From Fibrobacter sp. UWR3 (GTDB taxonomy: Bacteria; Fibrobacterota; Fibrobacteria; Fibrobacterales; Fibrobacteraceae), in NCBI RefSeq assembly GCF_900143055.1, contig NZ_FRCW01000001.1, positions 62,001 through 126,000 of the forward strand: DNA of 64,000 nt. Reading direction: 5' to 3'. Below the pieces are notes generated by a model. The model was not told the origin of the DNA, made no database searches, and saw nothing but the letters and a program-made list of their open reading frames with translations. The position numbers were made by a program, and so were the translations under genes. How positions within the stretch are numbered: position 1 is the first letter of the stretch; every line of letters begins with the position of its first letter. Below are positions 48,420 to 64,000 of the stretch, piece by piece.

Positions 48420-48525
48420 CTGAAATTTGTCAACCCCTTCCCCGGGCAAAATCGCAAAAAATTCGCAGTCCACAAAAAGACATTTTCTGTCACTGACGTT
48501 ATCTATCTTTCGGGGCGGAGGCACT

Positions 48526-48858
48526 ATGGAAAACGACACGTTCGGCGGCGCGATACTCGCATGGGTCAAGAGCGCAAAGGCGTTCCTGAAAGTCCAGGCG
48601 GGCACCGGCGACAACCTGCTCGAAGAAGACATCCGGGAAGGGTTCACCGACTATTGCCTATGGTCCACGTTCCGGCCGGAAAGCATCGACACCGACGGCG
48701 AACTCAACATGGAATGCCTGGACAGCGGCATGGTCCTGTTCAGGGAAAACTGCACCCCCGGAGAGGCGCTGGAATCGAGCTACCGGCAAGCCTTCGGCAA
48801 GGACTTCGACAGAAACGACGTCATAATCCTGATGCGCGGGAATGACGAACAGCCTTGA
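48526..48858 (+). CDS. Hypothetical 110-residue acidic protein
   Basis: Starts MENDTFGGAILAWVKSAKAF, ends LMRGNDEQP. Soluble, acidic, with no motif I recognise. GGGGCGGAGG lies directly before ATG 48526, which sets the start. Its last 38 bases overlap the end of the convergent PIN gene. It lies among toxin-antitoxin genes but shows no clear link to them. Confidence 0.6.
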   Translation: MENDTFGGAILAWVKSAKAFLKVQAGTGDNLLEEDIREGFTDYCLWSTFRPESIDTDGELNMECLDSGMVLFRENCTPGEALESSYRQAFGKDFDRNDVIILMRGNDEQP

Positions 48859-49405
48859 TTTCGGCCTCGATTTCCTCTTCGCTCATCCCGGCGGTTCCGT
48901 TCTTGTGAGCCTCGTCGTTGAGCGTGTACAGGGCTTGCATCAGCCTGGAAACGTCGTAATCGATGCGAGACTCGTTTATGACAAATCCCGACGGAGTAGG
49001 CCTAATCAGTTCGTAAAAATCCTTGGGCGATATTGCAAAAGGGCATCCTGGAAAATGTTTTAAATTCCCCGTCACAAGAAAGGCTTTCTTATCCTGATGA
49101 GCGAAAGCAACATCGTAGAAAATCTTGTCATCCATATCTGGCAAAACAACACCAGACTCTTTTACCGGCTCATTGACCGCGTATTTTGAAATCTCGTCAA
49201 TAAAAGAATTCTGATACTCTAACGAGAAATTAAACTTTCCCCTTTGTAGGACTTCCCGATATTCCTCAATAATATTGCTGTCAATAATGGGAATATACTT
49301 CTTTTGGGCAATGCCTAGAAAAATCTTTAGTGGGATGGATTCACCCCTGTTTTTTGCCAGTGCGGCAGAAACCAAGACGTTTGTATCAACGACTGCGTAC
49401 ACCAT
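48821..49405 (-). CDS. PIN-domain toxin with antitoxin-like C-terminal extension
   Basis: 194 residues. PIN RNase domain at 1-138: VVDTNVLVSAAL with D7, conserved Glu in IIEEYREVL, acidic LPDMDDKIFYDVA and late TGNLKHF. This group normally ends near FYELI. Here about 55 more residues follow, and residues ~154-184 (RLMQALYTLNDEAHKNGTAG, MSEEEIEAEIKA) nearly copy the C-terminus of the adjacent antitoxin. The encoding DNA is a 94-base direct repeat. The ATG overlaps the antitoxin gene by 20 bases. PIN toxins cut RNA when released from the antitoxin; the tail might bind the toxin itself. Confidence 0.85.
   Translation of the reverse strand: MVYAVVDTNVLVSAALAKNRGESIPLKIFLGIAQKKYIPIIDSNIIEEYREVLQRGKFNFSLEYQNSFIDEISKYAVNEPVKESGVVLPDMDDKIFYDVAFAHQDKKAFLVTGNLKHFPGCPFAISPKDFYELIRPTPSGFVINESRIDYDVSRLMQALYTLNDEAHKNGTAGMSEEEIEAEIKAVRHSRASGL
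48852..48945. repeat. 94-base direct repeat, copy A (in the PIN toxin gene)
   Basis: Matches 49432-49525 in the same orientation with 5 differences. Encodes the antitoxin-like tail of the toxin on the minus strand. Confidence 0.9.
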
Positions 49406-49712
49406 GTTTCTTTTTCCTCTCGGCCCTAGCCGCCTTGATCTCGGCTTCGATTTCCTCTTCGCTCATCCCGGCGGTCCCGTTCTTGTGAGCCTCGTCGTTG
49501 AGCGCATACAGGGCTTGCATCAGCCGACTGTTGTCTTGCGTGGTGGCAGAAGGGATTTCGTTCACGTTGAACGGAAGTCCCCTCTCGATGATAGCCCGCT
49601 TGAAGAAAATACGGACCGCGGTCGGAATGTCCATCCCGAGCCTTTCGAACAGGTCGCTCACCTCGTTCTTGAGATTATCGTCTACACGGATTTGTAGAAT
49701 TGACATCGCCAT
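49386..49712 (-). CDS. RelB/DinJ-type antitoxin
   Basis: 108 residues. The N-terminal ribbon-helix-helix reads SILQIRVDDNLKNEVSDLFE and RLGMDIPTAVRIFFKRAI, which is classic RelB/DinJ, a DNA-binding, autorepressing antitoxin. C-terminal part (from about residue 55) should bind the toxin. Its last ~45 residues include the block duplicated in the PIN gene. It is unusual to see a RelB/DinJ antitoxin with a PIN toxin. Start at 49712 (GAGG 5 bases upstream) or at the next Met (49706). Confidence 0.85.
   Translation of the reverse strand: MAMSILQIRVDDNLKNEVSDLFERLGMDIPTAVRIFFKRAIIERGLPFNVNEIPSATTQDNSRLMQALYALNDEAHKNGTAGMSEEEIEAEIKAARAERKKKHGVRSR
49432..49525. repeat. 94-base direct repeat, copy B (in the antitoxin gene)
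   Basis: Partner of 48852-48945, about 95 percent identical. Probably the source copy, since the sequence belongs naturally to the antitoxin end. Confidence 0.9.
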
Positions 49713-49723
49713 ATGCGCCTCGC

Positions 49724-49769
49724 AGTTGATACAACTACAAAATATAGTATAAACAACGTGTAAAAGCAA
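49724..49769 (-). promoter_or_regulatory. Promoter and palindromic operator of the RelB/PIN pair
   Basis: Minus strand TTGCTT (49764-49769), 17-base spacer, TATATT (49741-49746). Just downstream AGTTG-TAT-CAACT (49724-49736) is a perfect palindrome between promoter and antitoxin start, a fitting autorepression site for the ribbon-helix-helix protein. Confidence 0.55.
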
Positions 49770-49784
49770 CATTTTTTTCATTCC

Positions 49785-50021: not shown

Positions 50022-50975
50022 ATGAAATCACTCGCAAATACCATCTACTCCTGTTTCAAGGACAAGGGCGAATTCTCGCTCAAGGACGCCTATTCCGAAA
50101 ACTCCGACAAGCCGAAGGAAACCGTCCGCGCACGCATCTACGACAACCTCGGCGTAAAATTCGAGCGCGTCGCCAAGGGCCTGTACAAGACAATCGAGGG
50201 CGACGAAAGCTGCGTCGTGATAGAAGGCGACGGCCGCGACCTCTCCATGCTCGGGGACGCCTCAATCGACTGCATCCTGACCGACCACCCGTGGCTCGAC
50301 AAGAAGTCGAACAAGGGCGGCGACCGCAACTTCGCCACATACGACTGCTTCAGGTACACCCTCGACGACTTCAAAGAAAAAGCCCGCGTGCTCAAGGACG
50401 GCTGCTTCCTCGTCGAAATCCTCCCCGCCGAAAACGAGAACAACTACGATTACCTCTACCAGATAAAGAAATACGCTGAACAGTGCGGGCTGCTCTACTA
50501 CTCGAAAGTCACCTGGAAAAAGGGGAACTTTGTCAGCAATACCGGGCGCAAGTCCAAGAACACGCAAGACGTGATGATATTCTCGAAAGGCAAGGCGCGC
50601 TGCCTGCGCATCGACGCCAAAAAGACAAAAGACACCGGGACGCCCCAGTACATGAGCGGCACCGCGCAGATGCTCCCTGCCATGTTCGACATCCCGCCCG
50701 TCGCAAGGAAGAACAAGATACACCAGAGCGAACTCCCGCTGACCCTGTGCGAAAGAATCCTCCAGTTCGTGACCAGGCAGGGCGAAACCGTGCTCGACAC
50801 CTTCGCCGGCAGCGGCGTCGTGGGGGAAGCCGCACTGAATTTGAAACGGAACTGCATCTTGATAGAACTCGCCCACAGGAACATCCTCAAAATCAGGAAC
50901 AGGCTTGCAGGCAACCCCTTCTTCCGGGAAGTGTTCTGGAAAGCAACCCCGGCCCCCGCCAACCCGAACGGATAA
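50022..50975 (+). CDS. Orphan DNA (N6-adenine/N4-cytosine) methyltransferase
   Basis: 317 residues. An N-terminal winged-helix-like part (1-60, MKSLANTIYSCFKDKGEFSL) is followed by the methyltransferase. Motif IV is D88-H-P-W91 (LTDHPWLD), a variant of DPPY; the SAM-binding motif I comes late (DTFAGSG, about 259-265), the beta-type order. No restriction gene is beside it, so it is probably an orphan or prophage methylase. Its GC matches the backbone better than the AT-rich island to its right. Target sequence unknown. Confidence 0.8.
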   Translation: MKSLANTIYSCFKDKGEFSLKDAYSENSDKPKETVRARIYDNLGVKFERVAKGLYKTIEGDESCVVIEGDGRDLSMLGDASIDCILTDHPWLDKKSNKGGDRNFATYDCFRYTLDDFKEKARVLKDGCFLVEILPAENENNYDYLYQIKKYAEQCGLLYYSKVTWKKGNFVSNTGRKSKNTQDVMIFSKGKARCLRIDAKKTKDTGTPQYMSGTAQMLPAMFDIPPVARKNKIHQSELPLTLCERILQFVTRQGETVLDTFAGSGVVGEAALNLKRNCILIELAHRNILKIRNRLAGNPFFREVFWKATPAPANPNG

Positions 50976-51392: not shown

Positions 51393-52586
51393 ATGCGCTA
51401 TATCGACATATTCGCTGGGTGCGGCGGCTTGTCCGTTGGTTTGCAAAACGCAGGTTGGCAAGGCATATTCGCTATTGAAAAAAATAAAGACGCATTCTCT
51501 ACACTGAAATATAACTTGATTGATCATGGTCATCATTTCCAGTGGCCCGATTGGTTGGATGTGAAAGAACATGATATCAAGAAATTTTTGGATGAAAACG
51601 AAGATAAACTTCGTGAGCTAGAAGGTCAAGTGGATTTGGTGGCCGGAGGACCGCCGTGCCAGGGATTCTCATTGGCTGGCAAAAGAAATACAAGTGATTC
51701 GCGAAACATGCTTGTCAAACAGTACATAAGGTTTGTCAAATTGGTTAAGCCTAAGGCGCTCATATTTGAAAATGTTCATGGTTTTACAGTTCATTTTCAA
51801 AGTCAAAAGGGCCGAATATCCCAATATTCATCCTATGTCATAAAAAAACTTAGGAAACTCGGTTACCATACGGATTCTAAAGTTATCGATGTTTCTCAAT
51901 ATGGTGTTCCTCAAAAGCGGCGCAGATTTATCCTTGTCGCAATGCTTGATTCAAATCCCTCCGAAGTTTTTAAGCACTTGGAGAATAACAAAGGTTGTTT
52001 TTGCCGAGAAAAAGGTATCAAGCAGTCTGCGACTATTCAAGATGCCATAGGCGATTTGGAGGAATCGAACGGCACATGCCAGTCCCCTGATACGAAACGC
52101 TTCCAGGCTGGATTCTATGGCCGCGCCGAGTCGGGTTACCAAAAGTTGATGCGTCAAGGCCTCCAGAATCATCGAGGGGCTGTCGATAGTCATCGTTTTG
52201 TTAACCATTCTGCTGCTGTAATTCAGTTGCATAGAGATTTGTTGGACAATGCTCCGAGAGGAAAGCGAATAACGCCCGATGACGGATATGTTGATAATCT
52301 GAAAAGACGTGGTGTTACAGTCCTTGACGCAAATTCTCAAGCACCGACAATAACGTCAATTCCAGATGAACTCGTTCATTACGAAGAACCGCGAATTCTT
52401 ACCGTGCGCGAACAAGCTCGAATTCAAAGTTTCCCCGATTGGTTCGAATTTAAGGGGAAATACACTTCGGGTGGAAAGTTAAGGAAGAAAGAAGTTCCCC
52501 GATATACGCAGGTTGGGAATGCCGTTCCACCATTGTTTGCCGAACAAGTGGGAAGAGCCTTGATGGAGGTGATGGGCCATGGCTAA
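51393..52586 (+). CDS. DNA cytosine-5 methyltransferase 1 of a LlaJI-like system
   Basis: 397 residues. SAM site motif I YIDIFAGCGGLSVGL, catalytic C89 in GGPPCQGFSLAG, ENV motif FENVHG, QRRRF-type motif (VPQKRRRFILV), a target-recognition region (about 215-310) and C-terminal motifs IX/X (GNAVPPLFAEQVG). Methylates cytosine in one strand of the site, protecting host DNA. GGAGG stands before the ATG. Overlaps the next gene by 8 bases, so it heads the operon. AT-rich, unlike the backbone. Confidence 0.92.
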   Translation: MRYIDIFAGCGGLSVGLQNAGWQGIFAIEKNKDAFSTLKYNLIDHGHHFQWPDWLDVKEHDIKKFLDENEDKLRELEGQVDLVAGGPPCQGFSLAGKRNTSDSRNMLVKQYIRFVKLVKPKALIFENVHGFTVHFQSQKGRISQYSSYVIKKLRKLGYHTDSKVIDVSQYGVPQKRRRFILVAMLDSNPSEVFKHLENNKGCFCREKGIKQSATIQDAIGDLEESNGTCQSPDTKRFQAGFYGRAESGYQKLMRQGLQNHRGAVDSHRFVNHSAAVIQLHRDLLDNAPRGKRITPDDGYVDNLKRRGVTVLDANSQAPTITSIPDELVHYEEPRILTVREQARIQSFPDWFEFKGKYTSGGKLRKKEVPRYTQVGNAVPPLFAEQVGRALMEVMGHG

Positions 52587-54849
52587 TAAAAGCAAAGAAC
52601 TTAATTTCCGCATTAGTGCGGGTTTGAAAAGTGTTATTGGCCGAGAGTTGATAAGCGATAAATATATCGCAATTTTTGAAATAGTAAAAAATTCCTATGA
52701 TGCAGGAGCAACATGCGTTTCCATCACTTATAAACAAAACGAAAGTGGCAAATACACCATTATAATAGAAGATAATGGTGTTGGCATGAATTACGATGAC
52801 ATTACACAAAAGTGGCTTTTTGTTGCATATTCTGGGAAAAAAGAAAAGAATCGTTCTGAATCATATGTTGACAAAATGACGCGTCATTTTGCGGGTGCCA
52901 AAGGAATAGGCCGTTTCTCTTGTGATCGTCTGGGATCGGAACTAAAGCTTTTCTCTAAAAAAAAGAACGAAGCAGAGACGCATGTCGTTGATATTGATTG
53001 GAATAAGTTTGAGGTAGATGACAAAAATGAATTTGTAAACATACCTGTTCTTTATCATACAGAGAAAGAATCCATTCTGCAAAAAAAACATGGAACCATG
53101 TTGTTGGTATCGAATCTTAGAGAAGAATGGAATAGAAACGATCTGCTTTCTCTCAAACGTTATTTGATGAAGTTGATAAGTCCCGATTTTAATAGTGATG
53201 AAAAAAATTTTTCTATCGAACTGATTGTCCCCAATGAAAAAGAAAACGACGATAAAGTACGAGGACAAGAGGGAGTGAATATTTGGCGTGATACGGTTAA
53301 TGGAATTGTAAAAAATGACATTTTGGAACAAATAGACATAAAGACAACAAGCATTACTGTTGATATAGATGAAAAGGGGAAGACGATCTCTACAAAGTTG
53401 TCGGATCGTGGAGTTGAAGTTTTCACTTTAAAAGAAAAAAATAGGGATTATTCAGAACTTAGAGATATCCATGCGTCGATTTTCTATTTGAATAGCGTTG
53501 CAAAAGCTGCTTTCACAAAACAGATGGGAGGGGTTAGACCAAGAGATTATGGCTCCGTTTTTATTTATAAAAATGGCTTTCGTGTAAATCCATACGGAGA
53601 ACCAGGACTGGATTTTTTTGGTATAGATCGAAGAAAATCTCAAGGTTATAATCGTTTTTTAGGCTCTCGCGAATTGATGGGGCGAATTTCTATAATAGGC
53701 AATGATGTTGACTTTATGGAAACGTCTAGCAGAGCGCATGGTTTTATAAAAACTCCAGCTGTAGAAAAACTAGAGGATTTTTTTATAAAAAAAATCTTAA
53801 CAGTGTTGGAAAAATATGTGGTCAATTTGATTGCTTGGGGAGAACCATTAAAGAATCGTGACAATCATGTAATTTCTCCAGAAGAGATTAACGCCCAAAT
53901 AATATCTCAGTTTATAACAAATGCTAATCCTAATGATATTGTAGAAATAAACTACAACAAAAAGTTATTCTCAAAAAATAATGAACAATCAAAAAATCTG
54001 TATTCGATAGTTGAACGTCTTGAAAAATATGCAAAAAAATCGGAAAATGAAGAGTTTCGCATGTTGGCGAAAAAAGCCAAGACGATTCTGCAGGTGAATG
54101 AAGAGCTTGAACAAGAAAACTCTGAAAAGTCTCAAGAACTTGATAGATTAAAACGCGAAAACGAAGCCCGCGAGAAACAGGTCTTTTTCTTGGAGAATGC
54201 GAACGACCAAAATGCTGAAAATCTTCTAAATGGCATGCATTCCATCTATACATTAGCAGATGCAAACAAAGGTAATTTAGCGGACTGTATGGATTTGCTC
54301 AAAAAAGAGAAAATTTCTAACGAAACATACGATATCCTTGTTGACGTTTTTCAGGTAAACGCGAAAATCCAAAAGATTGCTGATTTGGCGTTCCATGGGA
54401 ACATTTCTTTGGAAAACCAAACTATAGGGAATGTCTATGACTATGTAAAACAGTATTCCGAAAAGATGAATTATTTGAGAATGCCGCTTCACTTAAAACA
54501 AAATGGAGAATTAAGCAATTGCCAATTCAATCCATCATCGTTGGGCATTATTATTGACAATATTATCAGCAACTCCCAGAAAAACGAAGCTAGTAAAATT
54601 GATATCATATTCAGTAACGAGAAAAAGTTTGTTCTGGTGTCTTTTGTTGATGATGGACTGGGCTTAGACGCAAAGCTAAATGCTGCTGATTTGTTCAAGC
54701 GCGGCTTTTCTGCAAACTCACGAAAAAAAGGATTCGGAATGGGTTTGCCACAAGTGCATGACCTTGTTGAAGAGATGGACGGCTCAGTCTCCATTGATGT
54801 AAAATACAAGAAAGGATTTAAAATAGACATAAGGTTGAAACATGAATAA
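52579..54849 (+). CDS. Protein with two GHKL ATPase domains (Hsp90/MORC-like plus histidine-kinase-like)
   Basis: 756 residues, no membrane segments. N-terminal GHKL domain: N-box EIVKNSYDAGA, D65-N-G-V-G-M, GAKGIGR (105-111, then FSCDRLG). A middle region (200-460), then a coiled coil (about 465-545). C-terminal histidine-kinase-type ATPase: IIIDNIISNS (N661), DDGLGL (691-696), KKGFGMGLP (716-724). H554 in NGMHSIYTLA could be the phosphorylated His, but the H-box is not classical. Likely a cytoplasmic sensor that signals to the REC protein encoded next (8-base overlap). Sensing and phosphotransfer are inference. Confidence 0.85.
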   Translation: MANKSKELNFRISAGLKSVIGRELISDKYIAIFEIVKNSYDAGATCVSITYKQNESGKYTIIIEDNGVGMNYDDITQKWLFVAYSGKKEKNRSESYVDKMTRHFAGAKGIGRFSCDRLGSELKLFSKKKNEAETHVVDIDWNKFEVDDKNEFVNIPVLYHTEKESILQKKHGTMLLVSNLREEWNRNDLLSLKRYLMKLISPDFNSDEKNFSIELIVPNEKENDDKVRGQEGVNIWRDTVNGIVKNDILEQIDIKTTSITVDIDEKGKTISTKLSDRGVEVFTLKEKNRDYSELRDIHASIFYLNSVAKAAFTKQMGGVRPRDYGSVFIYKNGFRVNPYGEPGLDFFGIDRRKSQGYNRFLGSRELMGRISIIGNDVDFMETSSRAHGFIKTPAVEKLEDFFIKKILTVLEKYVVNLIAWGEPLKNRDNHVISPEEINAQIISQFITNANPNDIVEINYNKKLFSKNNEQSKNLYSIVERLEKYAKKSENEEFRMLAKKAKTILQVNEELEQENSEKSQELDRLKRENEAREKQVFFLENANDQNAENLLNGMHSIYTLADANKGNLADCMDLLKKEKISNETYDILVDVFQVNAKIQKIADLAFHGNISLENQTIGNVYDYVKQYSEKMNYLRMPLHLKQNGELSNCQFNPSSLGIIIDNIISNSQKNEASKIDIIFSNEKKFVLVSFVDDGLGLDAKLNAADLFKRGFSANSRKKGFGMGLPQVHDLVEEMDGSVSIDVKYKKGFKIDIRLKHE

Positions 54850-55756
54850 TCAATTCAAAATTTTATGGATCGAAGATAATGATGATTGGTATAAAGCCGC
54901 GTCAAGAAAGGTTATTGAATTTATTGAGAGCCACTCTCTTTCAACTAATTGTGTCGAACGAAAAAAAACGGGTAAAAATTTAAATTTAGATTCATTGAAA
55001 TCAAATAATTATGATTTGATTTTGATGGACTATAAATTGCCCAAAGGAAGCCCCAATGGCGATAAAATAATTGAAAATATTCGAAAAAATTTGATATTGA
55101 CTGATATCTTGTTTTATTCATCTCAATATGATGAAATGATAGAGTCCTTTAGAGAGATGGTTCCAGAAATAGATGGCGTATATTTATCAAAACGAGATCG
55201 AAGCCTTTTTCTGGAAAAAGTGGATCGACTTATATCGAAAATCGTTCAGCGATCGGAAGACATTGTTAATTTGCGTGGAATGGTTTTGGAGGCAACAAGT
55301 GATTTTGAAGAACAAGCAGAAAAACTCTTGACAAAATTGTATGATAGTGCGAAGGAAAGAAAGAAACAAATTTTAGATTCTATTTTAGACAAAAAAATAT
55401 TACAACACAACCAAAAAGAAATTAAACAGAAGGTTGCCGATTTTGAAGATGGCAAACTAAATGTCTCGATCGCAAACAACGACTTTCTTGGCATGTATAA
55501 TCGCCTAACAATATTTGCAGAGTATGCAAAAACAACCAACAACAAAGAAGCAAAAAACATTTTAAATTATTATATGTCTAAATTAGGATATTTTAGAAAC
55601 AAACTTGGACATGTAAAAAATGGAGATGTAGTGAAAGTCGCAGGCAAGGAATATACAATAAATCAAGACTTCCATCGTATGATGAGAAAAAACATCAATG
55701 AATTAGAAGAAGGCTTTCAAAATAAAATCAATTTTCTTCTAAATGATGGAATTTAA
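54842..55756 (+). CDS. Response-regulator protein with C-terminal HEPN-like motif (REC-HEPN)
   Basis: 304 residues. Receiver domain 5-125: acidic pocket E11/D12 (ILWIEDNDDW), phospho-acceptor D63 (LILMDYKLP), Ser pair (LFYSSQ) and K117 (YLSKRD). A helical linker (130-180), then a helical C-terminal domain with R252-N-K-L-G-H257 (YFRNKLGHV). This is the Rx4H signature of HEPN RNases, in the usual helix context. I infer a phosphorylation-controlled RNase or adaptor. No DNA-binding domain is seen. Translationally coupled to the GHKL gene. The receiver call is firm; the HEPN call is likely but rests on a short motif. Confidence 0.8.
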   Translation: MNNQFKILWIEDNDDWYKAASRKVIEFIESHSLSTNCVERKKTGKNLNLDSLKSNNYDLILMDYKLPKGSPNGDKIIENIRKNLILTDILFYSSQYDEMIESFREMVPEIDGVYLSKRDRSLFLEKVDRLISKIVQRSEDIVNLRGMVLEATSDFEEQAEKLLTKLYDSAKERKKQILDSILDKKILQHNQKEIKQKVADFEDGKLNVSIANNDFLGMYNRLTIFAEYAKTTNNKEAKNILNYYMSKLGYFRNKLGHVKNGDVVKVAGKEYTINQDFHRMMRKNINELEEGFQNKINFLLNDGI

Positions 55757-55787
55757 GGTGATTTATTCAAAATTCGTAGGTTAGTCC

Positions 55788-56705
55788 ATGTCCGTACCTA
55801 AGTTTGAAGAGTTCCTTTATCCGTTCTTGGTTCAAATCAAGGACCGCGATTTGTCTTCTAAAGAAATGCGTGATGCGCTGATCGCCCACTTCGGCTTGAC
55901 GGAGGCTGATTGCGCTCTCAAGACAAAGAGCGGGACCAACACTCAGGTGAACGACCGGATAAATTGGGTACGTCAATATCTGCGTCGGGCACTTTTTGTG
56001 GACCTTCCGCAAAAGGGCGTATATCACATTACCGAACGCGGCAAGGAATATCTGCAAAAGCACAAGACACTTTCTAAAAAAGACTTGATGGCATATCCGG
56101 AATTTTCGAAATATGCTACCGGCTCCACTATGGGAGAACCCGTCAGTCCGAGTCCTGTTCCGGTCGAAAACGAATCCCAAGACATGACGCCGACCGAATT
56201 GCTAGAACAGGCCTTCGACAACATCAACCGCGACTTGGCGGAGGATTTGCTGCAGAAGGTCATGGAACAGACTCCGAGATTCTTTGAGACTCTCGTTGTC
56301 GACTTGTTGAAAAAGATGGGTTATGGCGGATCGTTCGACGATTCCACAAAGGTGACACCCTATGTTCATGACGACGGAATAGACGGCATCATTTACGAGG
56401 ACAAGTTGGGCCTGGACAAAATATACATCCAGGCGAAACGCTACAAGGCGGACATCACCGTTGGCAAGCCGCAAATTCAACAGTTCGCGGGCGCATTGGA
56501 TGAACAAAAGGCGACAAAGGGCGTCTTTATCACCACAAGCGATTACAGCAAAGAAGCCCGCAACTATGTCGAAAAATTGAGCAAGAAAATTGTGCTTATC
56601 AACGGGCAGGAACTCACTCGGTTCATGATTGAGTTCAATGTCGGCGTAAGCACCAAGAAAACCTACGATGTCAAGCGAATTGACTCGGACTATTTTGAAG
56701 AGTGA
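55788..56705 (+). CDS. Mrr-type restriction endonuclease
   Basis: 305 residues. N-terminal winged-helix Mrr_N domain (1-100; LRRALFVDLPQKGVYHITER). An acidic Pro/Ser-rich linker (105-130), then the Mrr catalytic fold: FFETLVVDLLKKMGYGGSFD, D199 (DDGIDGIIY), Q215-A-K217 (IYIQAKRY). E. coli Mrr cuts methylated DNA; Mrr-fold enzymes in other systems cut unmethylated sites, so the target is open. Starts 31 bases after the REC-HEPN gene. Base composition is less AT-rich than its neighbours, hinting at a separate origin. Confidence 0.9.
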   Translation: MSVPKFEEFLYPFLVQIKDRDLSSKEMRDALIAHFGLTEADCALKTKSGTNTQVNDRINWVRQYLRRALFVDLPQKGVYHITERGKEYLQKHKTLSKKDLMAYPEFSKYATGSTMGEPVSPSPVPVENESQDMTPTELLEQAFDNINRDLAEDLLQKVMEQTPRFFETLVVDLLKKMGYGGSFDDSTKVTPYVHDDGIDGIIYEDKLGLDKIYIQAKRYKADITVGKPQIQQFAGALDEQKATKGVFITTSDYSKEARNYVEKLSKKIVLINGQELTRFMIEFNVGVSTKKTYDVKRIDSDYFEE

Positions 56706-56744: not shown

Positions 56745-57962
56745 ATGACTTTGATGAATATGAATCTTGAAGAATTTGATGCATTCCTACCTCAGAATGG
56801 TTATGAGGAAAATGCAGCCATACTTACTCATTATTTAATGATGAATAATGGTAAGAAAAAAACGATGAAAAAGAAGGTACTTGTAAACGAGTACGGTTTT
56901 GAAGAGGGCAAATTAAAGCAAGCAGAAAAATTTTATAATGAATTAGATTTTCCTTTTCAGCCACAAGACAACCCCAATTTCACATTTATTGATTTGTTTG
57001 CTGGAATAGGTGGTTTTCGTTTAGCAATGCAAGCTCATGGTGGAAAATGCGTTTTTTCTTCTGAATGGGACAAGGCTGCGAAACAGACTTATTTTAACAA
57101 TTACGGAGAAGTTCCTTTTGGGGACATTACGAAGCCTGAAATAAAAGCTCAAATCCCAGATAATTTCGATGTATTGTGTGCGGGCTTTCCATGTCAACCT
57201 TTTAGCAATATTGGATTACGCAAAGGCATCGAAGACACTCGTGGAACGTTATTCTATCATATTGCAGAAATCTTAAAAGAAAAGCGTCCAAAGGCTGTTT
57301 TTCTCGAAAATGTTCGGGGGCTTATAAGCAATGATGAAGGGCGAACTCTAAAAGTTATCTTGCAAACAATTACAGGTATGGGATATGTGTGCAATATTTC
57401 TCAGGAAACCATCGAAAATGGTCCGATAGCCAATTTAAAAAAGGATGCGACAAAGCTTGTTTTTAATCCTAAGGATTTTGGAATTCCGCAAAATAGACCA
57501 CGTATTTATATAGTTCTATGGCGAGCAGATTTGAATTTGGAAAAATTTGATTATCCAAAGCCTACCCATGAGAAAACGCGTGTTGGACAAATTCTGGAAC
57601 GTGGGAATTTAGAAAAATACACAATTTCCGACAAATTATGGGAAGGCTTTGAGCGAAGAAAAAAAAGAAATGAGGAAAAAGGGAACGGTTTCTCATACAG
57701 CGTTTTCAATGCCGACTCTTCCTATACAAGTGCTTTGTTGAGACGTTATTATAAGGATGGACATGAAATACTCATTTCACAGAAAGAGAAAAAACCTCGA
57801 AAACTAACACCCCGCGAAGCGGCAAATCTTCAAGGTTTTCCTAGAAATTTTAAATTGCCGTTATCCACGAGTAGCGCCTACCAGCAGTTTGGCAATAGTG
57901 TCGCCGTTCCTTTAGTGGATAAAGTCGCTGAACAAATTGTAAATCAAATTTTATCCAAGTAG
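56745..57962 (+). CDS. DNA cytosine-5 methyltransferase 2 of a LlaJI-like system
   Basis: 405 residues. An extra N-terminal domain (1-75; a short helical lid), then motif I FIDLFAGIGGFRLAM, catalytic C150 in AGFPCQPFSN, ENV motif FLENVRG, PQNRPRIYIV, target region (about 265-340) and GNSVAVPLVDKVAEQI at the end. It is only distantly like methyltransferase 1. In LlaJI-type systems two m5C enzymes modify the two strands of an asymmetric site, which would explain two here. The ATG may be 56745 or 56754. Confidence 0.92.
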   Translation: MTLMNMNLEEFDAFLPQNGYEENAAILTHYLMMNNGKKKTMKKKVLVNEYGFEEGKLKQAEKFYNELDFPFQPQDNPNFTFIDLFAGIGGFRLAMQAHGGKCVFSSEWDKAAKQTYFNNYGEVPFGDITKPEIKAQIPDNFDVLCAGFPCQPFSNIGLRKGIEDTRGTLFYHIAEILKEKRPKAVFLENVRGLISNDEGRTLKVILQTITGMGYVCNISQETIENGPIANLKKDATKLVFNPKDFGIPQNRPRIYIVLWRADLNLEKFDYPKPTHEKTRVGQILERGNLEKYTISDKLWEGFERRKKRNEEKGNGFSYSVFNADSSYTSALLRRYYKDGHEILISQKEKKPRKLTPREAANLQGFPRNFKLPLSTSSAYQQFGNSVAVPLVDKVAEQIVNQILSK

Positions 57963-57972
57963 AGGGAAAATT

Positions 57973-59844
57973 ATGGAGCCGTTACAAACATTTTTAAGCA
58001 GTTTGGATTCCCAAACAAAGTATAGGCTTTCCATCCAGCCTACGAAAGGGGTATTTATCTTAAGTAATAGCGGGAAAAGAGAAGATGTAAAAGATTTCTC
58101 TTTGCCCATAAATTCCTTACTTTCCTCGCTTAATGATATAAAAGCTCATTTAGAATCGTTTACTTCAAAATATAACGAAGATGAATGGAGAAAGGCAGGA
58201 GATTATCTTTCTGATAATCTGGCAAAATCACTTTTCAAATCACAAACACGACCTTTTTTTGAAACCTTAAATAAATTGTTAGTATGGGTTTCTGAAGGTG
58301 AATATAAAGATGGAGAGATGCCTTTAACTGTTGAGAATATTGATAAATTGGCATCTGAAGTTGTTAAGATAGATTTTTCAAGTTTTACAACTGAACATTC
58401 CTTATTGCAGGAAATGTTCTCCAATTCAAAAATGCGATTAGATCTACCTTATAACCGTATTGTTTTTGGTGCACCAGGAACAGGGAAAACTTTTATTATC
58501 GATAAAGAAGCGGAGAATCGTTTTGGGGCAATTGTAGACATCTCTCCAAAAGATGTGTGGCAAAAAATAAGTGAAGAAATCCAAAAATCAGACAAAACAG
58601 CGGCATCTTTGTTTGCAATTGGTTTTAAATACTCGCCTACTTTAAAAAAAGAAAATCCGAAATCCTTAGTTCAAAAGTTTAAAATAACCTATGATGGCGC
58701 ATATGCAATTAATCAAGGCATTAGGGTTGTTGATTTTTTCAGCAAGCTCCCTGAATATGATGCTGAAAAAATCGATGATATCATAAAAAATCAACTGGAA
58801 GCATTAAAAAACGAACATTTTTTAATGCAGGCGGGTTCTGCAGCTATTGGACTTAAGTATTCAGAATATTTTTATGGGAAAAGTACCGGCGACATCATTA
58901 ATGATTTAAATCTAAGCAAAACAAGTTCGCAGGCATCTTGGATTTGGAACGGGGCTCAATCAGCGAATTATTTTGAAGACGACACAGAAGAAAAAGTAAC
59001 GCATCGATATGAACGAGTTACATTCCATCCTAATTATAGCTACGCTCAATTTGTTGGAACGTATAAGCCAATCCAAGATAGAAACGATAATACCGTTATA
59101 AGATACGAATACATTCCTGGTCCATTTATGCGAGTATATGTTCAAGCGATGAAAGCGAAACAGGCTGGTTTAGATGACAATTTTCTTTTAATCATTGAAG
59201 AAATTAATCGTGCTAATGTTGCCGCTGTTTTTGGAGATGTTTTTCAGCTTCTTGACCGAAAAAATGGCGTTAGTGAATATCCCATTGCTGCTAGTGAAGA
59301 TGTCAAGAAATATTTAAAGGATAACGGAATTGATGATTGTGAAGAATTGAGAATTCCTTCCAACATGTACATCTGGGCGACAATGAATAGTGCTGACCAA
59401 GGCGTGTTCCCGATGGACACTGCCTTCAAGCGTCGTTGGGAATTCGAGTATATTGGAATTGATGAAAATGAAGATGGAATTAAGGATTATGATGTTCCAC
59501 TTCAAAAGAAAGAAGATGGTTCTCATGAATGGGTGAAGTGGAACGGTCTTCGCCATTCTATCAATGACAAATTGACAGAAATGAAAATCAATGAAGACAA
59601 GTTGCTTGGTCCCTATTTTATTTCAGAAGAAAAGTTGAAGTTGGTCGAAGGCAAAAAAGAAGAAAAAGCCGATGAATTTGTCAAAGCCTTCAAGAGCAAG
59701 GTGCTGATGTATCTTTTTGAAGATGCCGTAAAAATGCGTCCTGGCGACCTTTTTGATGAAAATGCTGTTGGCAAGTTGCGTTTCTCGGATATATGCAAAA
59801 AGTTTGACGAAATCGGCCAAGGCATTTTTAACTTCAAGAAATGA
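57973..59844 (+). CDS. McrB-like AAA+ GTPase, LlaJI R1-type subunit
   Basis: 623 residues. N-terminal region (1-140) of unknown fold, probably DNA-binding. McrB AAA+ domain: Walker A GAPGTGKT (166-173, K172), Walker B LLIIEEINRAN, and the McrB GTP signature M471-N-S-A-D475 (TMNSADQG), with DTAFKRRW following. A GTP-driven motor that moves DNA and brings in the nuclease subunit. The next gene overlaps by 4 bases (ATGA). R1 subunits of this kind are needed with R2 for cleavage in LlaJI. Confidence 0.92.
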   Translation: MEPLQTFLSSLDSQTKYRLSIQPTKGVFILSNSGKREDVKDFSLPINSLLSSLNDIKAHLESFTSKYNEDEWRKAGDYLSDNLAKSLFKSQTRPFFETLNKLLVWVSEGEYKDGEMPLTVENIDKLASEVVKIDFSSFTTEHSLLQEMFSNSKMRLDLPYNRIVFGAPGTGKTFIIDKEAENRFGAIVDISPKDVWQKISEEIQKSDKTAASLFAIGFKYSPTLKKENPKSLVQKFKITYDGAYAINQGIRVVDFFSKLPEYDAEKIDDIIKNQLEALKNEHFLMQAGSAAIGLKYSEYFYGKSTGDIINDLNLSKTSSQASWIWNGAQSANYFEDDTEEKVTHRYERVTFHPNYSYAQFVGTYKPIQDRNDNTVIRYEYIPGPFMRVYVQAMKAKQAGLDDNFLLIIEEINRANVAAVFGDVFQLLDRKNGVSEYPIAASEDVKKYLKDNGIDDCEELRIPSNMYIWATMNSADQGVFPMDTAFKRRWEFEYIGIDENEDGIKDYDVPLQKKEDGSHEWVKWNGLRHSINDKLTEMKINEDKLLGPYFISEEKLKLVEGKKEEKADEFVKAFKSKVLMYLFEDAVKMRPGDLFDENAVGKLRFSDICKKFDEIGQGIFNFKK

Positions 59845-61772
59845 CAGAAGTAAAACCATCCCTATTTCAAGAATTGAAGCGGTACTCCCTAAATGAGATT
59901 AGGGACCGTTTGGGATGTACTCCTGAAAATGTTAAAGCCTACATAAATACGCTCCGTAAATACGGGATTGTGAAAATTGTCAAGAAAGACAGTCTTGATT
60001 TCGCGGATTTGACCAACGATGACCTTGTCATAGCGGATTCTGCAGAAGAAGTTTCAGGAGCAAGCTACAAGTTTGACTTTGTTGGCATTGTCGCTGTAAA
60101 AGATAAAGTAGTCTTCTGCTACCCTAAATATACTACATATTCCGATAAAGAAAAGATTCTCGAAGAATTGAAGTTGGCAATTAAAGCTATTCGCAAATAC
60201 GATTCTAAAGGCGAATTGGTTCATTTGCATAATAGGGACGATAACGGCGAGTATAACAAATTGGCTTTGTCGTTGCACATTTTGCAGGATTACTTCGAGA
60301 ACGGAGTCTATACGAACATTCAAGAAATCATAGAAACCAATGGCGATGGTGAAATCGATTGGGACCGGACAATTAATGAAACTTTTGCCTATATAAAAGA
60401 TAATCGCCCTTATTATCTGGAACTGAAAACTCGATCATCGCAAAATGACGATTTTGATTATTTCAAGCGTCTGCATGAATGTATCGTTACTCAATGCTCC
60501 AAATATCTTAAGGAATTGACGATATTGGATTTCTTTGATATGCCGGAGGTTCTTCTAAGTGAATTAGATTTGAAGGACTTTGGCGACACGGATTATATTC
60601 TCTACCGTCTGGAACGAGAAATCGCAAACCAATATATCACAAGAAAGCAGAATCTTTTAAAAACGCTTTACACATTTGTCGCCACATCCGGAACAAGTTC
60701 GCAAGAGAACTCTTATAGCCTCTATGGGACAAATTGCATGAACCTGGTTTGGGAAAAAGCCTGCGGACAGATATTTGGGAATGAGTATGAAGCATTGAAA
60801 AAGCATATTCCAAAGCCTTTGTGGGAATTGGATGGTGAAACCGACAATAAAGCCGACACTTTGATTCCTGACATAGTCACAAGACACACATATTCTGACG
60901 GCTCAGAACTCTTTTACATTCTGGACGGAAAATACTATTTACCTCGTATAACCAATAATAAAATTAGTGGAAATCCTGGTGTTCAAGATGTTGTAAAGCA
61001 GTTTGTCTATCATAAAGCTTTCCTTGATTACATTTTCAGTCAATACCATTGCACCGTCTTTAACGCGTTCTTGTTCCCCATGCTATCTGATTTATATGAA
61101 ACGGAAAACATAAAGCTTCGCGGGCATGTGACAATGATGGATTGGGGCGTTGAAACTCTTGTTCCGTTGTATCTGCTGTTTTTAAGGCCGTCTTTTGTAT
61201 GGAACGCGTATATAAAAGGAAAATCCTGCAAGGACGAACTCAATAAAGTTAGAAGCGAAGTTCAATTCCAAGACGTTTTCTCTGGAATACTCGATACTTC
61301 ACAGACTTTGCAAAGAAAGTCAAAAGAAAATGTTGACAATCAGCTGACTATGGTCGGTTATTTAAAGCAACCTTATTTTGACTTTATTGCCGATGCATTG
61401 TTAAAACCAGAATCTTTTTTATTTTATTTCTACAGAACAAAAGACGGGTTCAAATATCCAATCCATCCCGATTTGAAACATTGCCAAAAATTTATCGGCT
61501 ATACAGATGACGGTCGAATTATTCGAGGGGATATTTCGAAAAACATCTCTGTAATGGATGCTGAAAAATTGAAGGTTGAATTGGGAAAAGTTGGATTTTC
61601 TGGCAGCGCACATTCCGCTGAAGACTATATCGTTGTAGAAATCTGCAATTATAAAATTGACGATTCTATTAGTGTAAGCGAGTTAAAGGAATCCATCAAC
61701 GCGTATAAGGGAAATGATGCAACAAACGCACACTCCCCGAAAGTGATTGATGTGATTAATTATTTTTTTTGA
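59841..61772 (+). CDS. LlaJI/McrC-like restriction endonuclease subunit (R2-type)
   Basis: 643 residues. N-terminal helix-turn-helix (10-45; LNEIRDRLGCTPENVKAYIN), a long middle region and a C-terminal PD-(D/E)xK nuclease: IPD344-IVTRH, then ILD362-G-K364-YY, and VVKQFVYHK. The whole matches the LlaJI endonuclease family (PF09563) as I recall it, and the McrC-type nuclease plan. It supplies the DNA cut, driven by the McrB-like GTPase. Ends at a terminator shared with the convergent gene. Confidence 0.87.
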   Translation: MTEVKPSLFQELKRYSLNEIRDRLGCTPENVKAYINTLRKYGIVKIVKKDSLDFADLTNDDLVIADSAEEVSGASYKFDFVGIVAVKDKVVFCYPKYTTYSDKEKILEELKLAIKAIRKYDSKGELVHLHNRDDNGEYNKLALSLHILQDYFENGVYTNIQEIIETNGDGEIDWDRTINETFAYIKDNRPYYLELKTRSSQNDDFDYFKRLHECIVTQCSKYLKELTILDFFDMPEVLLSELDLKDFGDTDYILYRLEREIANQYITRKQNLLKTLYTFVATSGTSSQENSYSLYGTNCMNLVWEKACGQIFGNEYEALKKHIPKPLWELDGETDNKADTLIPDIVTRHTYSDGSELFYILDGKYYLPRITNNKISGNPGVQDVVKQFVYHKAFLDYIFSQYHCTVFNAFLFPMLSDLYETENIKLRGHVTMMDWGVETLVPLYLLFLRPSFVWNAYIKGKSCKDELNKVRSEVQFQDVFSGILDTSQTLQRKSKENVDNQLTMVGYLKQPYFDFIADALLKPESFLFYFYRTKDGFKYPIHPDLKHCQKFIGYTDDGRIIRGDISKNISVMDAEKLKVELGKVGFSGSAHSAEDYIVVEICNYKIDDSISVSELKESINAYKGNDATNAHSPKVIDVINYFF

Positions 61773-61917: not shown

Positions 61918-62832
61918 TTACTTTAGGTTTGAGCCGAAAAAGCGCTTCATTTCTTTTACATTTTCTTCAACATTGTCTTTTAATAATTTAATACGGTTTG
62001 AGAACAATGCTGAATCGCCTTTTTTTATGAGGAGATAAATTAAAAATGTATAAGTGGCTAAGTATGCAAAATGATTCATTGCATAACGCTTAAATGTAGT
62101 CTTACTACTTTTTGTAGAAGAAAATGATGAGCCGTGTGCATTGTCATTTCTTAAAGAGTATAGTATTCCTAGGAATAAGAAGTATAATAGAAGTTTGCGC
62201 GACGGAGAACAATTGTAATTATCAACGCAAACGCTTTGTTGGTTGAAAATTTTTTTGAACAAGCATGCAGCATTTCTTTTTGAGACTACATTTGATGAGT
62301 TTAAATCAGGATATTTGCGAAGTATAGCTTCCACTAAATCGTATTGATCCGATATAAGATTATTACGTTGATTTTCAGTAATTCTTTGTTTGACTTTTGG
62401 TTCAGTAACGATTCTGTCAATAAAATAGATATTCAATTGTATGGGAATGGCTGAACAAAGATGTTTTATTATATCATTTAAGTCGCTGTTTCTATTTGCA
62501 TCTTGATCAACTTCGTCGATAAAATCCTTTAATCGCTTGGTAATGTTTGTGGAGGAGAATAACTGCTCTGAATAATTCTCAAAGCCAATAAATATGTAGA
62601 AAAACGCTTTATCTGGTTTGTAAGGCATGGTTTCTAATGCATCTATAATACTGCTAATGGCTTTATTGTACTCTTCGTCATCAGAATACCATAATGTAAA
62701 TGGTGTAAATAACTTTCCTATATCTGTAAAATCGTCACATTTCTTTTTATACTCTATTTCTTTAGGAAATAAATCTGATTTTGGCCATTTGTTGATAAAA
62801 TCTATTCTTTTTTGTGCGAAAGCAACCGACAT
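61918..62832 (-). CDS. Hypothetical protein with HEPN-like Rx4H motif
   Basis: 304 residues, AT-rich, soluble, mainly helical. The motif R228-N-D-N-A-H233 in ILYSLRNDNAHGSSF is a textbook HEPN Rx4H pattern (RN..AHG). A preceding helix (LLLYFLFLGIL) and following helix (YAMNHFAYLATYTFLIYLL) are compatible with the HEPN fold. HEPN proteins are often RNase toxins or parts of defence systems. No antitoxin-like partner is next to it. Convergent with the restriction operon. Function inferred from the motif and location only. Confidence 0.65.
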   Translation of the reverse strand: MSVAFAQKRIDFINKWPKSDLFPKEIEYKKKCDDFTDIGKLFTPFTLWYSDDEEYNKAISSIIDALETMPYKPDKAFFYIFIGFENYSEQLFSSTNITKRLKDFIDEVDQDANRNSDLNDIIKHLCSAIPIQLNIYFIDRIVTEPKVKQRITENQRNNLISDQYDLVEAILRKYPDLNSSNVVSKRNAACLFKKIFNQQSVCVDNYNCSPSRKLLLYFLFLGILYSLRNDNAHGSSFSSTKSSKTTFKRYAMNHFAYLATYTFLIYLLIKKGDSALFSNRIKLLKDNVEENVKEMKRFFGSNLK

Positions 62833-62924: not shown

Positions 62925-63076
62925 AGGGATAGTGACCCCTTGGGGACAAGACTCGCATAGCGAGGCTTGGTTCTAGGAGGCGAGCGGCAAGCGTAAGCGC
63001 GGGCGATTGCCCCTAGAATATAGCCCGACCCGCGCGTGCGCGGGGAACGCCCAACTAGCGTCCGTTCCCCGGACCA
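62925..63076. repeat. Hairpin-rich spacer on the right side of the defence island
   Basis: GC-rich DNA resumes at about 62,925 with CCCC-TT-GGGG (62936-62945), CTCGC-ATA-GCGAG (62952-62964), a larger stem TTCTAGG/CCTAGAA (62971-63018) enclosing GGGC-GATT-GCCC (63001-63012), CCCGCGC-GT-GCGCGGG (63029-63044) and GTCCG/CGGAC. In style it resembles the left spacer at 51,000-51,250. Confidence 0.55.
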
Positions 63077-63077
63077 C

Positions 63078-64000
63078 ATGGAACATTCCAAGTTCAGGGG
63101 CGATGCCCGCTATGCGACTCTGCTCGATGTCATGAGCAGCATGGAACTGGTCTACAAGAAAAACCAGAACCTGTTCGTCTATGTCGCCAAGAACAAGCGT
63201 AGCGGAAACAACCGGATTAACTGGCAGCGGACTAAAGCAAAAAAGACGCCCTTTATTCAGGGCGATTCGCCAATCTACATGGAGCTGGTGAACAAGAAGA
63301 AATTTTTTGATTAGGACGACCGCAGAAGAAAAACGAAGACGGCAAGATAATCGACCACCTGTACAAGGAAAAGTCGCTGATATTCGCCGACGGGAGCGAA
63401 AGCATTTGGCACATTGGCGAAAGCAAGTATTATAAAGAAGAAAACGAGGTGCTCGGCCAGTCGGTTGCAAAGCAGTACACCTACGCCAAGAACAATGTCC
63501 AAGACTTTTTCTCTCCCGATTTTGTCGATGGCAATGACGAATGCTATAGTTCGGGTGTCCATCAAGGAGTTCGCTACAGGGACTCGGTGACAGAAGGCTA
63601 CAGCGTCACGCCGAACTTCTTTATCCGCGGATTTGTCCCAAAGTACGAAAACGACGATCAGTACGGCGATCCGTATTTTTCGAAGAAAGGCGAAACAAAG
63701 GATATCGTTGAGCCCAACGAAGATGATATGTGGGGTAAGCGCAACCGCCATTTCCGTGCGCTAGTGGGCCGCGTGTTCCAGCCTGCGGGAACGCCTCATT
63801 GCCTGATACTCGCGCTGGAGCAAAGTGCCGTGAACGCTTCGCTGGAAGGCGCCTTGGATAAAGATTACGAAAAAATTCGTCAAATTGTTAAAGACGAAAA
63901 GTGCGAAATATTCCAAGTGTGGCCCCATGAAATTTGGGATAACGGTAATTCCCAGAAATGGGACGATGAAAGCCTGCAGCAAAACAAAGTCACTGAATTG
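63078..64000 (+). pseudogene. Frameshifted gene, possible LlaJI/McrC-like nuclease remnant, runs off the window
   Basis: Frame 1 reads MEHSKFRGDARYATLLDVMS and ends at a TAG (63312-63314) just after a T6 run. From 63311 another frame is open for 230 codons to the window edge (LGRPQKKNEDGKIIDHLYKE ... SLIFADGSESIWHIGESKYY). The segment ESKYY...SVAKQYTYAKNNVQDFF lines up with DGKYY...DVVKQFVYHKAFLDYIF of the intact LlaJI-type nuclease, so a related PD-(D/E)xK enzyme is likely. The homopolymer break suggests a slippage mutation or a sequencing error. Confidence 0.55.

Follow-up and report, generated by a model that had tools for sequence, protein, structure and literature searches.

A conserved trio of methyltransferase, double-GHKL kinase and receiver-HEPN protein as a candidate phosphorelay in bacterial immunity

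Three adjoining genes, encoding a C5-cytosine DNA methyltransferase (M1), a double-GHKL kinase (dGHKL) and a receiver protein with an all-helical C-terminal domain (REC-HEPN), form a real and widely conserved trio. We analyzed it in a window of 64,000 nucleotides from Fibrobacter sp. UWR3, where it abuts a LlaJI-type restriction unit. The observed gene order, intact motifs, predicted folds and co-inheritance of the three genes are best read as a methylation-gated phosphorelay that would activate a HEPN RNase, a reading to which we assign, from sequences and structural models, a probability of about 0.5. Kinship with paraMORC ATPases and with two-component genes beside methyltransferases is known; the immune logic proposed here is new, plausible and testable.

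Composition of the locus and unit boundaries

The genes of the locus are as follows (domain matches in brackets).

51393..52586, + strand: M1, C5-cytosine DNA methyltransferase, trio gene 1 (PF00145, 4.8e-59)
52579..54849, + strand: dGHKL, double-GHKL kinase, trio gene 2 (Pfam HATPase_c_3, 1.7e-23; HATPase_c, 2.7e-18)
54842..55756, + strand: REC-HEPN, receiver plus all-helical C-terminal domain (Pfam Response_reg, a weak match, 1.2e-4)
55788..56705, + strand: Mrr nuclease, first gene of the LlaJI unit (Mrr_cat PF04471, 1.6e-35; Mrr_N PF14338, 3.5e-21)
56745..57962, + strand: M2, C5-cytosine methyltransferase of the LlaJI unit (PF00145, 2.1e-96)
57973..59844, + strand: LlaJI R1-like, McrB-type AAA+ subunit (AAA_5, 3.3e-8; PADLOC REase_II, 3.7e-91)
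59841..61772, + strand: LlaJI R2-like nuclease subunit, RE_LlaJI (PF09563, 4.2e-61)

An ORF check confirmed the open reading frames, the coordinates and the 8-base overlaps (at M1/dGHKL and again at dGHKL/REC) given in an earlier note on this DNA, and its naming of a double-GHKL protein, a receiver with an RNKLGH motif (at R252 to H257) and an Mrr nuclease agrees with the Pfam domains. Scans of the window for sigma-70 promoters and for terminators gave results near shuffle expectation.

The same note had placed GHKL, REC and Mrr together in one backup module inserted inside a LlaJI operon, with M1 as a LlaJI gene, and this part did not survive comparison with other genomes. Orthologs of M1 (E ≤ 1e-60) were found in 3 of the 168 genomes of the phylum that were searched, with dGHKL-REC directly downstream in all 3, and LlaJI R2 (RE_LlaJI) was found in 9 of the 168, mostly without the trio. 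The LlaJI operons of a genome of the same genus (L166) and of one of the same family (L169) have the order Mrr-MTase-MTase-R1-R2, with Mrr leading and with GHKL and REC absent; the window Mrr is 99.3% identical in amino acids to that of L166 and 80% identical to that of L169, and DNA homology between the window and L166 begins exactly at the Mrr ATG and stops at its stop codon (55788-56703). Because Mrr leads LlaJI loci that have neither GHKL nor REC, and because M1 tracks dGHKL-REC, the locus is, judged by its sequence, two complete systems end to end ([M1-dGHKL-REC-HEPN] and [Mrr-M2-LlaJI R1-R2]), a gene-exact mosaic of two separable units rather than an insertion into LlaJI. A single GHKL-REC-Mrr module would explain why these genes are neighbors in the same orientation, but it is contradicted by the company that Mrr and M1 keep in these genomes and by the methyltransferase that accompanies dGHKL-REC in most distant loci, and we consider it highly improbable. 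Mrr was likewise rejected as a member of the trio, copies of Mrr with 99.3% and 80% identity heading LlaJI operons without GHKL or REC.

LlaJI itself (PMC1459862) comprises two MTases and two R subunits, with no Mrr, GHKL or REC. The window resembles it between 56745 and 61772, where an McrB-like R1, an RE_LlaJI R2 and an m5C methyltransferase are found, and differs in the added Mrr and in that M1 belongs to the trio. One MTase (M2) remains once M1 is so assigned; a single-MTase LlaJI locus exists (L170), and M2 is 43% identical to its lone MTase. The C-terminal half of the R1-like protein is kept in L019, L166, L167 and L170. Between the window and L019, which likewise has the trio next to a LlaJI unit, DNA similarity runs through M1 as far as the start of dGHKL and resumes in parts of R1 and R2. 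The pairing is repeated in a member of the Spirochaetales (L030), where the trio (M1 75%, dGHKL 58% and REC 48% identical to the window) is followed by a NOV_C protein, two MTases, R1 and R2, and the trio is paired with McrB/LlaJI-like units in L081, L088 and L018.

Conservation and predicted folds of the trio

When 84,980 species were scanned once with an alignment of three dGHKL sequences, at least 459 relatives came up; the analysis covers the top-scoring 80 (L030-L109), drawn from Bacillota, Bacteroidota, Spirochaetota, Pseudomonadota, Planctomycetota, archaea and others. REC is the gene right after dGHKL in 78 of the 80; the two exceptions are L065, whose contig ends just past the REC start, and L064, which has a divergent 231-aa gene in that place. 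An m5C methyltransferase lies immediately upstream of dGHKL in approximately 68 of the 80 and within two genes in approximately 78, and in some Proteobacteria it is convergent with dGHKL. This co-conservation of dGHKL and REC across many phyla is far beyond chance. The earlier note had called for co-occurrence next to m5C methyltransferases in several phyla, which holds for GHKL and REC and fails for Mrr, and had named a neighborhood unique to this genome as refuting, which the relatives in many phyla contradict.

The trio appears to be self-contained, because 56 of the 80 loci have no same-strand gene within 250 bases after REC and because no restriction enzyme is shared among the genes flanking the trio loci. 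These flanks include transposition, integrase, Fic and other defense-type genes. The distances of the three trio proteins correlate (Mantel r 0.67, 0.78 and 0.49; P approximately 5e-4), and in comparisons with the window proteins conservation is highest for the methyltransferase and lowest for REC. Between the window and L019, M1 is 92% identical, dGHKL about 34% and REC 20%; M1 and sensor therefore need not be tightly co-adapted, and the kinase-receiver pair seems, from these identities, to have been exchanged behind a conserved methyltransferase. Plasmid and phage records gave no match to the window REC and partial, N-terminal matches only to dGHKL, among them a Stenotrophomonas plasmid MTase-GHKL pair with no receiver gene listed downstream in an incomplete gene table; plasmid records gave no match to the REC of a relative, and an E. 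coli DNA search gave none.

The dGHKL protein consists of an N-terminal MORC/MutL-type GHKL ATPase, a transducer, a coiled coil, a DHp hairpin and a C-terminal HATPase_c domain. In its structural model (pLDDT 78) a MORC/Hsp90/MutL-type head with transducer is joined by a long coiled coil to a histidine-kinase core, and Foldseek returned SMCHD1, MORC2, MORC3 and Hsp90 for one half (over 417-501 columns for the SMCHD1, MORC2 and MORC3 matches) and HK853, CpxA and ZraS for the other. The modeled DHp helices span residues 545-577 and 581-610, with H554 in the former. This histidine, singled out in the earlier note, is invariant in all 58 kinases aligned, and both sets of ATP-site motifs, including the CA-domain boxes N665, D691xGxG, F706 and GxGxG, are invariant or nearly so in the 58 relatives. 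The model is thus that of a predicted histidine kinase (DHp hairpin with its His; CA domain with N, G1, F and G2 boxes), and it also fits the broad paraMORC GHKL group in its intact GHKL motifs, its S5-like region and its R-M neighborhood. The residue after H554 is Ser in the window and mostly Gln (18), His (16), Thr (8) or Ser (7) across the 58 relatives, an acid not being the rule; because the usual acid is missing, kinase chemistry is not assured.

The REC-HEPN model (pLDDT 88, pTM 0.86) shows a (beta-alpha)5 receiver and, after it, an all-helical domain in which RNKLGH (R252-N-K-L-G-H257) lies where the penultimate helix ends; response regulators and REC domains dominate the Foldseek listing. 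The phosphoacceptor D63 and the R252 and H257 of the HEPN-like motif, all three pointed out in the earlier note, are each invariant in 77 of 77 receivers and stay fixed while REC identities drop to about 20%; N253 is kept in 74. Other residues expected of a receiver are present (E/D11, D12 and S/T93, with R/K118 in 62 of 77), and the modeled fold, acidic pair, Asp, Ser/Thr and basic residue after beta5 together predict a receiver domain. In sequence, the motif conforms to the HEPN pattern Rx4-6H with a polar residue after the Arg. Matches to HEPN profiles are scattered (HEPN_Swt1 in 3 of 77 members, Csx1 in 3 of 77 and CARF-HEPN in a few). Alignment to the HEPN_Swt1 profile with hhalign gave a partly motif-driven match (P = 7e-4, against 0.25-0.67 for four controls; probability 26%), and searching PDB sequences with the REC alignment gave receiver domains, with no HEPN entry among the best 60 listed. 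Given the invariant RNxxxH, the helical fold, the scattered HEPN_Swt1, Csx1 and CARF-HEPN matches and the modest hhalign match, the C-terminal domain is likely a HEPN domain and a predicted RNase. No DNA-binding output domain was found, which argues against a transcription regulator.

A possible methylation-gated relay and its alternatives

In the proposed relay, M1 would methylate its target site in the host genome, which we infer to be the self-marking step, and dGHKL would survey DNA with its MORC/MutL-type N-terminal ATPase clamp. Unmethylated foreign DNA would alter the state of the clamp, and the coiled coil would relay the change to the histidine-kinase core; phosphorylation of H554 would follow, and the phosphate would then pass to D63 of REC. 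Phospho-REC would dimerize and join two HEPN domains into a composite RNxxxH RNase site, and RNA cleavage would halt the growth of phage and host. The trio would then be an R-M-like system in which a two-component phosphorelay ending in an RNase, not a DNA-cutting enzyme, forms the restriction half, suggesting that bacteria that meet unmarked foreign DNA shut themselves down through a phosphate relay. If the relay is real, then two-component signaling, normally a regulator of transcription, is also a trigger of epigenetic self/non-self immunity; MORC-type ATPases gain a bacterial role, in which they read the methylation state of DNA and emit a phosphate signal; a gene pair without assigned function in many phyla acquires a testable one; and the puzzling linkage of C5 methyltransferases and two-component genes reported in 2021 (PMC8011034) is accounted for. 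The wider claim, that a self-marking methyltransferase, a MORC-headed kinase reading the absent mark, a phosphorelay to a receiver-HEPN RNase and exchangeable outputs make up a widespread undescribed immune system, is one that we put forward tentatively.

This mechanism is weakest in the sign of regulation, and in its main rival phosphorylation acts as a brake: the kinase would hold REC-HEPN phosphorylated and inactive, and loss of the kinase or of methylation, or a phage attack on the module, would free the toxin, much as in a guarded toxin-antitoxin pair. Phosphorylation of a receiver can activate or inhibit, and the same anatomy and overlaps would serve either sign. HEPN sites need dimers, however, and receiver phosphorylation usually favors dimers, so that activation is the simpler reading. 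We therefore hold the brake to be unlikely, even though HEPN proteins are often toxins restrained by a partner (PMC3710099).

A further alternative concerns the output, in that the RNxxxH domain might be a non-catalytic helical dimerization or adaptor domain and the relay might control another process, for example the methyltransferase or the neighboring LlaJI unit. Weak support from HEPN profiles fits this, as do the LlaJI/McrBC-like units that adjoin the trio in the window, L018, L019, L030, L081 and L088, but an Arg and a His that are as fixed as the phosphoacceptor at about 20% overall identity count against an adaptor, and most trio loci have no LlaJI unit; we judge it improbable. The relay has also to be set against an ordinary type II R-M system, in which dGHKL would do the restricting, as a GHKL-type factor like BbrUII/HgiDII, with REC as an accessory regulator. 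An m5C MTase is a nearly constant neighbor, PADLOC REase_II models match 35 of the 58 dGHKL relatives, and residues 20-198 of dGHKL match the BbrUII/HgiDII family (8.3e-25; 87 bits against a cut-off of 550 bits). That match is confined to the ATPase head, however, and does not extend into the part beyond it; a complete histidine-kinase core makes up the C-terminal half and domain searches found no nuclease, which makes an ordinary R-M system quite improbable.

Related systems, receiver outputs and genomic setting

A kinase-receiver pair beside C5 methylases, HEF_HK (PF19191) and Response_reg_2 (PF19192), was described in 2021 with a group-1 architecture of HATPase_c_3+HEF_HK+HATPase_c; its output function is not given, and the text has no mention of HEPN, RNase or phage (PMC8011034). 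The trio shares with it a kinase of HATPase_c_3, DHp-like and HATPase_c domains, an adjoining receiver gene and a C5 methyltransferase (the neighborhood counts for REC and MTase given above agree), and loci of that family (L114-L116) have the MTase-dGHKL-RR order of the trio. The true receivers of these loci differ in length (555-617 aa) and have no conserved RNxxxH, and the family has His then Glu/Asp, whereas the trio kinases are as a rule without the acid. The HEF_HK profile matches 0 of 58 trio kinases and the Response_reg_2 profile matches 4 of 77 trio receivers weakly (best E 0.0023); the window dGHKL and REC have no match to PF19191 or PF19192 even at E ≤ 10. Membership of this family was rejected on these profile tests and on the missing acid after H554.

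ParaMORC ATPases in R-M systems were described in 2008 (PMC2292703), and paraMORC proteins have Ymh-HEPN fusions, with a link to HEPN RNases proposed (PMC3710099). The trio has the same MORC/MutL-type GHKL head in methyltransferase neighborhoods, and differs in that a histidine-kinase core is fused to this head and the HEPN-like domain belongs to a separate receiver protein. The view that no described system has this gene set, taken in the earlier note, is thus narrowed: dGHKL with a receiver beside C5 MTases (PMC8011034) and paraMORC ATPases in R-M systems (PMC2292703) were known, whereas a HEPN output on a receiver is in neither paper and the exact family lies outside their profiles. In the literature, of which subscription papers and preprints were thinly covered, we found no account of a GHKL kinase and a methyltransferase together with a receiver-HEPN protein. 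The receiver part of the window protein matches the PADLOC candidate PDC-M60 (PDC-M60B, 4.5e-6, residues 3-67), as do just 3 of 77 trio receivers. Detocs also uses a histidine kinase and a response regulator in phage defense, with a different sensor and a purine nucleoside phosphorylase effector, and is not known to include a methyltransferase.

Receivers without the HEPN part occur in L058, L059, L067, L070, L072 and L102, and in L058, L059, L067, L072 and L102 the gene after dGHKL encodes 124-141 aa, the receiver domain alone. At L064 (12268-13678), dGHKL and the divergent gene in the receiver position are accompanied by a 243-aa protein with HG...SCNS segments, which is CHAT/caspase-like by eye, has no Pfam match and is possibly a different effector. 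On viral contigs, receivers near distant dGHKL proteins (L134-L151) are often 350-470 aa long, and by eye a PxCDL-like segment replaces HEPN; these and the L114-L116 receivers have a C-terminal (T/S)PxCDL segment, often with a final GRPG-like stretch, as an uncharacterized output domain. On another viral contig (L131), an opposite-strand ORF of 494 aa, perhaps a transposon insertion, interrupts dGHKL and leaves parts of 335 and 429 aa, with the MTase and REC-HEPN remaining on either side. One type of sensor kinase thus seems to be coupled to several receiver outputs, the HEPN branch being the one found here, and such diversity of outputs behind one kind of kinase fits exchangeable effectors.

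Different MTase-dGHKL-REC loci in L020 and L021 are flanked by the same two stretches that lie at 48474-48822 and 63054-63756 of the window, and the right-hand one also adjoins a paraMORC locus in L023. Shared flanks around different loci point to a chromosomal hotspot with exchangeable defense cassettes. Dispersed repeats were rejected as their source, each stretch being single-copy in this genome. Just upstream of the island are a PIN-domain toxin-antitoxin-like pair (48821-49405 and 49386-49781, − strand) and a solitary N6/N4 DNA methylase (50022-50975, + strand). Beside the LlaJI unit (61918-62832, − strand) lies a gene for a 304-aa protein of no Pfam family with the sequence RNDNAH, another RX4H HEPN-like motif.
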